A stretch of DNA of 45,000 bases, taken from assembly GCF_020194955.2 (NCBI RefSeq), contig NZ_JAFCIY020000010.1, positions 1 through 45,000 of the forward strand. The letters are read 5' to 3'. The DNA is from Desulfuromonas sp. CSMB_57. GTDB taxonomy: Bacteria > Desulfobacterota > Desulfuromonadia > Desulfuromonadales > Syntrophotaleaceae. The notes below the pieces were generated by a model, which was given only the letters and a program-made list of their open reading frames with translations, made no database searches and had not been told where the DNA came from. The translations under genes and the position numbers were made by a program. Of this stretch, positions 11,216 through 13,027 are shown one piece after another. Numbering within the stretch: position 1 is the stretch's first letter; each line of letters starts with the position of its first letter.

Positions 11216-11244
11216 AACTTAAGGGATTTACCGTTGTTTGTCAA
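11216..11244 (-). promoter_or_regulatory. Predicted sigma-70 promoter of bamD
   Basis: TTGACA (11239-11244), 17 bases, TAAGTT (11216-11221) on the minus strand. The -35 box overlaps the rpoH stop codon (11241-11243), so bamD can be expressed independently of rpoH. Confidence 0.6.
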
Positions 11245-12137
11245 TGCGCCAGAGTCGCAGCCCTGCTCTTTTCGGGCCGCTGCCGATGCTCCTGGTCGGC
11301 ATCCAGCACCAAGGCCCGGCGGATTTTCTCCAGGGCATTTTTTTCCACCTGACGAATGCGCTCGCGACTGATGCCGTAATCGTCGGCCAGTTCCTGCAGG
11401 GTGCGGGGCTGGTCGCTGAGAATGCGGTCCGTCACGATGTGCCGCTCCCGTTCGTTCAATCCCTGCAGGGCCACCCGGACCCTTTTTTGGGTCAGACGTC
11501 GCTCTTCCTGTTGGAGCAGCAATTGCTCCTGGTCGGCGCGATCATCGGCTAATGTGTCGAGCAGGGAATAGCCTTCGCCTGCAACCAGCTCGACATCCAG
11601 GGAAGCATCATGACCGGCCATGCGCCGGCTCATCTCCTCCACTTCCTGGTCGCTGACCTGCAGTTGCCGGGCAATCTCGCTGGCAGGGGCGGTGCCGGTC
11701 ATCCGCCGCAGTGCCTCCCGGGCCTGGCCGAGCTTGAAGAACAACTTCTTCTGGGCCTGGGTGGTCCCAATTTTGACCAGAGACCAGTTGCGGATGATGA
11801 AGTTGTGAATGAAGGCCCGGATCCACCAGACTGCGTAGGTGATGAAGCGCAGCCCGCGATCGGGTTCGAATTTTTTCAGGGCCATCATCAGGCCGATGTT
11901 GCCTTCCTGGATCAAATCGAGCAGCTTGAGGCCGTAGCCGCGATATTCATGGGCGATCTTGACGACAAACCGCAGGTTGGCGCAGATCAGGCGATGGGCG
12001 GCATCGACGCTGCCTTCCCTCCGGTAGGCGGTGGTCAGTTGGAGTTCTTCCTCCCGGGACAGGATCTGAAACTGCTTGATTTGGGCGATGTACAGGTCCA
12101 GGGTATCGGGCAAGGCGGGCAGCATGGTATTGCTCAT
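11241..12137 (-). CDS. rpoH: Heat-shock sigma factor RpoH (sigma-32)
   Basis: RpoH directs RNA polymerase to heat-shock promoters. The 298-residue product has region 1.2 (LYIAQIKQFQILSREEE), region 2 (LRFVVKIAHEYRGYG, LLDLIQEGNIGLMMALKKFE, FITYAVWWIRAFIHNFII), the RpoH-box segment (AQKKLFFKLGQAREALRR) and region 4 with its helix-turn-helix (TLQELADDYGISRERIRQVE). The start at 12137 has GGAGG 8 bases upstream; upstream in-frame ATGs at 12149 and beyond have no good ribosome site. A CIRCE operator covers the promoter start site, so HrcA should repress it. bamD lies downstream on the same strand. Confidence 0.94.
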   Translation of the reverse strand: MSNTMLPALPDTLDLYIAQIKQFQILSREEELQLTTAYRREGSVDAAHRLICANLRFVVKIAHEYRGYGLKLLDLIQEGNIGLMMALKKFEPDRGLRFITYAVWWIRAFIHNFIIRNWSLVKIGTTQAQKKLFFKLGQAREALRRMTGTAPASEIARQLQVSDQEVEEMSRRMAGHDASLDVELVAGEGYSLLDTLADDRADQEQLLLQQEERRLTQKRVRVALQGLNERERHIVTDRILSDQPRTLQELADDYGISRERIRQVEKNALEKIRRALVLDADQEHRQRPEKSRAATLAH

Positions 12138-12174
12138 GACTTGAACCTCCATAACCGGAAAAAGTCGCATGGTA

Positions 12175-12201
12175 TTAGCACTCATCGAGGCAGAGTGCTA
12201 A
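12175..12201. promoter_or_regulatory. CIRCE operator (HrcA binding site) upstream of rpoH
   Basis: TTAGCACTC (12175-12183), 9-base spacer, GAGTGCTAA (12193-12201): an exact match to the consensus CIRCE inverted repeat. It lies at the predicted rpoH transcription start, 37 bases before the start codon. CIRCE normally controls groESL and dnaK; here it controls the heat-shock sigma factor. Confidence 0.96.
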
Positions 12202-12204
12202 TAA

Positions 12205-12233
12205 TGTATAGCAAAATACCGCTAACGCTTCAA
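12205..12233 (-). promoter_or_regulatory. Predicted sigma-70 promoter of rpoH
   Basis: TTGAAG (12228-12233), 17 bases, TATACA (12205-12210) on the minus strand, placing the transcript start inside the CIRCE element. Confidence 0.7.
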
Positions 12234-12272
12234 GCCCCCTGATGATGCATCCAACCGGGATGGTGTGGCGCA

Positions 12273-12302
12273 TTGACAGGATCATGGTCCCCTTCGCATA
12301 AT
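12273..12302 (+). promoter_or_regulatory. Predicted sigma-70 promoter of the 12347 methyltransferase gene
   Basis: TTGACA (12273-12278), 18 bases, CATAAT (12297-12302), 45 bases before the chosen start codon; divergent from the rpoH promoter. Confidence 0.55.
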
Positions 12303-12346
12303 GGTGCCCGGCAGTTATGCGGGCAATCGGCGGCGAGGAAAACGCG

Positions 12347-13027
12347 ATGGCAGACAGAGAAAAGGCTGATGGTTCGGCCGCTTGGGCGGCGGACAAAGAA
12401 TCTGACGGCAGCACCCGAGGTGATGCGTGCCCTCTGGCAAGAATGACGGATTGGGCCCGGCTCTGGATAAGCGGGGTTTTGCAGCCGGGCGACATGGCGG
12501 TGGATCTGACGGCCGGCAATGGCCACGATACGGCTTTTTTGTGTCGGATGGTGGGTGCCCCCGGTCGGGTCGTCGCTTTCGATATTCAGCACCAGGCCCT
12601 GCAGCGCACCGCGGAGCGATTGCAGGAGCAAGGCACGAGCGTGACCTGGACTGCTTCGGAGGGGCCGCCGGCGGCGGCGCCCGGGGCGCTGCTGGTAGCG
12701 GCTTGCCACTCCCGGCTGGAGCGTTATGTGGAAGGCCCGCTACGGGCGGTGATGGCCAATCTCGGTTATTGTCCCGGCGGCGATCATGCCCTGGTGACCC
12801 GAACCGACACCACTTGCGCCGCTTTGCGCGCGGCCTTGGAACGGCTGCTTCCCGGCGGACGCATCACGGTAGTGCTTTATCCGGGGCATGCCGGCGGTGC
12901 CGGGGAGTCTGCCGCGGTTCGGAAATTATTCTCCTCCCTGCCGCCCGGGGAGTGGCAGGTCATGGAACTGGCGGCGGTCAATCGAAGGGCGGCCCCGCAT
13001 TTGCTGCTTGCGGCCAGAAAGGCGTGA
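12347..13027 (+). CDS. Class I SAM methyltransferase, YtqB/MnmM (rRNA_methylase) family
   Basis: The 226-residue product has the SAM-binding motif VDLTAGNGHDTAFL and the family-specific NLGYCPGGDHAL with RTDTT after it, as in YtqB. YtqB of Gram-positives (MnmM) methylates the wobble uridine of tRNA after MnmEG; the same role here is inference. GAGGA lies 7 bases before the ATG at 12347; an in-frame ATG at 12317 lacks a good site, and an internal ATG at 12443 would remove a low-complexity N-terminal extension (ADREKADGSAAWAADKESDG) that YtqB lacks. It precedes xthA by 18 bases, so the two are probably co-transcribed. Confidence 0.85.
   Translation: MADREKADGSAAWAADKESDGSTRGDACPLARMTDWARLWISGVLQPGDMAVDLTAGNGHDTAFLCRMVGAPGRVVAFDIQHQALQRTAERLQEQGTSVTWTASEGPPAAAPGALLVAACHSRLERYVEGPLRAVMANLGYCPGGDHALVTRTDTTCAALRAALERLLPGGRITVVLYPGHAGGAGESAAVRKLFSSLPPGEWQVMELAAVNRRAAPHLLLAARKA

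Follow-up and report, generated by a model that had tools for sequence, protein, structure and literature searches.

The rpoH locus

The window analysed here, meaning the whole 45 kb stretch of DNA, encodes on its minus strand the heat-shock sigma factor gene rpoH of the sigma-32 family (11241–12137, with the ATG at 12137–12135 and the stop codon ending at 11241). The frame was assigned by its match to the NCBIfam equivalog profile for RpoH, TIGR02392 (343.2 bits, cut-off 323.1). Its translation of 298 amino acids begins MSNTMLPALPDT and includes AQKKLFFKLGQAREAL, which by eye resembles the RpoH box. Divergent from rpoH is a frame at 12317–13027 that looks methyltransferase-like by eye.

Read along the minus strand, the upstream region consists of a −35 box TTGAAG (12228–12233), a 17-base spacer, a −10 box TATACA (12205–12210), 3 further bases, a perfect CIRCE operator (12175–12201), a GGAGGT ribosome-binding site (12145–12150) and the ATG. 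The operator, TTAGCACTC-N9-GAGTGCTAA, is a 9-9-9 inverted repeat and was found by pattern search. The promoter boxes and the ribosome-binding site were read from the sequence; the geometry is similar in relatives. A search of the window allowing up to 3 mismatches returned this CIRCE site and no other, with 0 mismatches, and the same tolerance gave no site in 100 shuffles of the window. The perfect operator and the TTGAAG-17-TATACA promoter that the first-pass annotation placed before rpoH are thus both borne out. The range it gave, 12137–12233, has the start codon and the −35 box as its exact limits. Its claim that the operator sits at the predicted transcription start agrees with the distance of 3 bases from the −10 box.

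HrcA and CIRCE in the same genome

The window comes from a 3.14 Mb genome in 94 contigs. The first-pass annotation had named a search for hrcA elsewhere in the genome as a check, and this search found one hrcA gene (PF01628, E 4.2e-65; TIGR00331, 334.7 bits, cut-off 197.2), so the proposal is not refuted there. Allowing up to 3 mismatches, the genome contains three CIRCE sites. All are perfect, and a backward-pattern control gave 0. The three sites precede rpoH, groES-groEL and hrcA-grpE-dnaK, where groEL, grpE and dnaK were named by frame reading. All three promoters look sigma-70-like by eye.

Distribution among relatives

We searched 136 genomes of the order for RpoH and CIRCE. RpoH exceeded the TIGR02392 cut-off in 82 of them. 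The order sample comprises 84 upstream regions. Of these, 82 belong to genes that exceed the cut-off, in 81 genomes (two of the genes are in G030), and two belong to partial genes; the window's own genome is left out of this sample and of the other counts below (60, 40 and 149). CIRCE with at most 2 mismatches is present at 81 of the 84 regions (41 perfect, 28 with one mismatch and 12 with two). In one case (L041) it lies about 300 bases 5′ of rpoH. Two of the three misses arise because the contig stops, within the right arm at L055 and within the gene at L091. The third is real: at L069 (genome G134), the 701 bases read, of which some 500 precede rpoH, contain no CIRCE with up to 6 mismatches. 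This is the sole order region with full upstream sequence that lacks CIRCE, in a genome that has both hrcA and rpoH. Across the order, 130 of 136 genomes have hrcA; among those with a completeness of at least 90% and no more than 5% contamination, the figure is 84/84.

In the class search, RpoH was found at E 1e-75 or better in 208 of 277 genomes. From outside the order we took 60 upstream regions (59 genomes) among the best-scoring matches listed, and all 60 have CIRCE (0 mismatches in 29, 1 in 23, 2 in 5 and 3 in 3). The survey of relatives suggested in the first-pass annotation therefore gave 81/84 in the order and, among those best-scoring matches, 60/60 in the rest of the class. For the whole class this amounts to 141 of 144 rpoH upstream regions read, with two of the three misses at contig ends. 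CIRCE is a near-constant feature of the class rpoH genes read here. The phylum search found RpoH at E 1e-75 or better in 330 of 395 genomes. In the other classes, a sample of 40 regions from 40 genomes in 39 families, drawn among the matches listed, had CIRCE at 8, all of them in genomes with hrcA.

Loci L092–L121 repeat genomes already counted and were left out, with the exception of L120 (G157), which has CIRCE and stands in no count, yet forms one row of the tree described below. Two further loci are in no count: L005, whose source is a Desulfuromonadales bacterium (71% identity), has upstream of rpoH a CIRCE with a single mismatch, and L006 (49% identity) has no CIRCE at rpoH. The L005 genome may be the same as G110, whose locus L073 has an identical CIRCE site.

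The match at rpoH could be a chance or relic match with no function, and the order genome that keeps rpoH and hrcA without CIRCE (G134) fits such a reading. We consider it extremely improbable. Neither the shuffled windows nor 3680 mononucleotide-shuffled rpoH regions contained a CIRCE with up to 3 mismatches, and CIRCE is present at 141 of 144 class regions while its middle 9 bases vary.

Promoter geometry and proposed repression

Promoter geometry was examined at 149 CIRCE sites at rpoH from the order, class and phylum. The best −35/−10 pair upstream of CIRCE scores on average 8.37 of 12, compared with 7.22 in shuffles. Scores of 8 or more were reached at 120 of 149 sites and in 1043 of 2980 shuffles. 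Among these 120 sites, the −10 box ends 0–5 bases before CIRCE in 105, and the commonest spacer, 17 bases, occurs in 98. With the −10 box this close, bound HrcA would cover the predicted rpoH start; that start would fall in the left CIRCE arm, so HrcA would be expected to block initiation.

rpoH is thus a well supported candidate target of HrcA: hrcA is present, a perfect operator lies at the predicted promoter and the arrangement is kept at almost all rpoH genes read in the class. The CIRCE site in the window very probably functions as an HrcA operator and serves to repress rpoH. In the proposed mechanism, HrcA would at normal temperature occupy CIRCE over the predicted start of the sigma-70 rpoH promoter and block RNA polymerase. 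In bacteria where the system has been studied, GroESL keeps HrcA active, and heat shock occupies GroESL so that HrcA loses activity. On heat shock, the loss of HrcA activity would derepress groESL, hrcA-grpE-dnaK and rpoH at once, and the RpoH made would then turn on its own regulon. The analysis shows the operator, a promoter-like sequence with its geometry, hrcA in the genome and conservation at rpoH in the class; from these we infer that HrcA binds, where rpoH transcription starts, and that the gene is repressed and induced by heat.

Alternatively, the inverted repeat could serve mainly as an RNA hairpin in the rpoH leader, influencing message stability or sensing temperature. With transcription predicted to start at about 12199, a stem of 7 pairs can form from the repeat, and in Bacillus the CIRCE stem is reported to affect message stability. 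The substitution pattern in the 149 sites points the other way. The pair between position 3 of the left arm and position 7 of the right arm (L3-R7) is a broken A-C in 33 sites, whereas 8 sites have G-C and 4 have G-T; the pair L7-R3 is G-G in 19 sites and G-A in 1. Four of the nine arm pairs are invariant. Since changes in the arms are mostly one-sided, a DNA operator whose arms are read separately is favoured over an RNA stem. In addition, the fold of the rpoH leader is no better than that of shuffled sequences (z −0.43), the ribosome-binding site lies outside the CIRCE stem, and positions 11900–12350 of the window have no Rfam match up to E 1. On the one-sided changes, the leader fold and the Rfam result we rejected a hairpin or thermosensor as the main explanation; it is very unlikely.

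Cascade or feed-forward loop

The sequence supports a cascade in which HrcA would repress rpoH alongside groESL and hrcA-grpE-dnaK. The first-pass annotation went further and proposed a feed-forward circuit. A coherent feed-forward loop would require sigma-32 to drive groESL and the hrcA-grpE-dnaK operon as well. A passage of PMC545781 describes sigma-32-like promoters before heat-shock genes, including dnaK-dnaJ of Geobacter sulfurreducens, and a strict sigma-32 pattern matches 9 sites in the window's own genome against 0 for the backward control. However, the promoters under CIRCE at groESL and hrcA-grpE-dnaK are of sigma-70 type by eye, and we could assign none of the 9 to the upstream region of a chaperone gene, in a scan that is insensitive and constitutes weak evidence because it allowed zero mismatches. 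Six of the 9 sites lie inside open frames of at least 383 residues, on one or other strand, and one precedes a frame that is Cas5-like by eye. A feed-forward loop is possible but doubtful. Of the original proposal, control of rpoH by HrcA is well supported by operator, hrcA and conservation, and the feed-forward part is a hypothesis.

Association of rpoH, hrcA and CIRCE

One family of the order, f9, lacks RpoH over the cut-off in all 44 genomes (G047–G090), where the best matches score as other sigma factors do. In this family, 41 of the 44 genomes have hrcA, and most of the 44 have two CIRCE sites. Among the 88 order genomes at least 90% complete, three CIRCE sites (at most 2 mismatches) were found in 55 of 59 with rpoH, compared with 6 of 29 without (Fisher p 7e-12, which ignores kinship; the counts were typed by hand). 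Of these six exceptions, five come from f9; the remaining one, G017, has 7% contamination.

In the phylum sample, hrcA is present in 23 of 40 genomes. CIRCE occurs at rpoH in 8 of the 23 genomes with hrcA and in 0 of the 17 without (Fisher p 0.0125, ignoring kinship); in the other 15 of the 23, hrcA is present and CIRCE is absent at the rpoH examined. Restricting the sample to the 13 genomes with RpoH over the cut-off gives 6/6 with hrcA and 0/7 without (p 0.0006, again ignoring kinship).

To place these counts on a phylogeny, we used a tree of RpoH with 61 rows: 30 from the class, 30 fetched ones and the window. Four changes on this tree account for the presence of CIRCE. CIRCE is absent throughout one clade of 11 RpoH, which is well supported, with hrcA present or absent. 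Outside it, a clade of six rows and two single rows, all without hrcA, lack CIRCE, as does G576, a long-branched row with hrcA. A kinship-corrected test had 5 supported pairs, of which about two were informative, both in the expected direction (p 0.5). The link between hrcA and CIRCE across the phylum is only suggestive for this reason.

Relation to known systems

CIRCE at rpoH is not new as an arrangement. A perfect CIRCE before rpoH of G. sulfurreducens, at −51, was predicted in 2004, with further sites before groESL and hrcA-grpE-dnaK-dnaJ (Rodionov et al., 2004, Table 8; PMC545781). The arrangement in the window is already of a described kind because that table lists it for G. sulfurreducens: the same TTAGCACTC-N9-GAGTGCTAA precedes rpoH, and the two chaperone targets are the same. 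The table gives no rpoH CIRCE for G. metallireducens or Desulfuromonas species. Where it lists the site for one species, we find it at almost all of the class rpoH genes read, and this class-wide extent is the new part of the finding. It turns a single-species prediction into an apparent class rule that places HrcA above the heat-shock sigma factor. Other reports of CIRCE at rpoH were not found beyond PMC545781 in the literature searched, which excludes most subscription papers.

The locus shares with the classical HrcA/CIRCE systems at groESL and dnaK operons the operator sequence, the hrcA gene in the genome and a sigma-70-like promoter. Classical targets are chaperones, whereas the target here is a sigma factor gene, so HrcA would control a second regulator instead of a chaperone. 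RpoH of G. sulfurreducens was reportedly the subject of a study by Ueki and Lovley in 2007. The E. coli RpoH belongs to the same sigma factor family as that of the window. In E. coli, rpoH is controlled mainly by a translational thermosensor and by chaperone- and FtsH-dependent stability of the protein. Unlike E. coli rpoH, the gene in the window has a transcriptional repressor site and a leader without an unusually stable fold. The command order, with HrcA over rpoH, would differ from the E. coli textbook case.

Operator variant and a putatively mobile rpoH stretch

In family f25, the CIRCE at rpoH reads TTAGCAGTC, with C changed to G at position 7 of the promoter-proximal arm. Across 18 genomes of the family (loci L162–L179 and L261–L274), this variant occurs at 21 of 22 rpoH sites and at 1 of 38 other CIRCE sites (at most 3 mismatches). 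The 22 sites are the 18 sampled first and 4 second copies, and they do not represent independent events because of shared descent and because three copies lie in a nearly identical stretch. The single non-rpoH site with TTAGCAGTC is on contig 60 of G251, whose one RpoH is elsewhere. Two further genomes, G206 and G232, have TTAGCAGTC at both rpoH copies. Outside f25, the variant is found at three of the 149 sites (L067, L126 and L134). Our guess is that TTAGCAGTC may alter the affinity of HrcA.

Four loci in families f25 and f23 (L263, L264, L265 and L268, in G231, G215, G261 and G142) have an rpoH with its own CIRCE that is 97–100% identical. The shared stretch is at least 3316 bases among L263, L265 and L268, up to the locus ends, and 1947–2429 bases with L264. 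L263, L265 and L268 have two Hsp20 genes on the promoter side of rpoH, and all four loci have two helix-turn-helix genes beyond the rpoH end; gene identities in L265 were assigned by Pfam. In L264, the shared part stops before the hsp20 genes, where a frame looks IS-transposase-like by eye. The other flanks differ, with an AraC-type gene in L264 and L265 and a magnesium-chelatase-type gene in L268. Recent horizontal transfer is the plain reading of these nearly identical stretches. Assembly contamination is possible as well, though the G261 genome has just two contigs. The stretch had no match in the plasmid collection, and its RpoH had no confirmed relative among the viral contigs.

Taken with the distribution data, these observations allow a joint reading that we put forward tentatively and regard as rather unlikely to be right in full. 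HrcA control of rpoH would be ancestral in the class and some neighbouring classes, f25 would have tuned the operator through TTAGCAGTC, and a mobile rpoH unit would carry its operator between families. If the tuning is real, the HrcA level to which rpoH responds would differ from that for groESL and hrcA. If the unit is mobile, with two hsp20 genes in most copies, it would plug a transferable sigma factor into the repressor circuit of a new host. The f25 operator change and the moving rpoH unit offer direct tests of circuit tuning and transfer.

Stress-gene islands with hsp20 are likewise moved horizontally, as described in a review (PMC8290217). That review has one rpoH passage, on RpoH degradation by FtsH, and one island with a sigma-24-like factor. 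The stretch described here has rpoH together with its own CIRCE.
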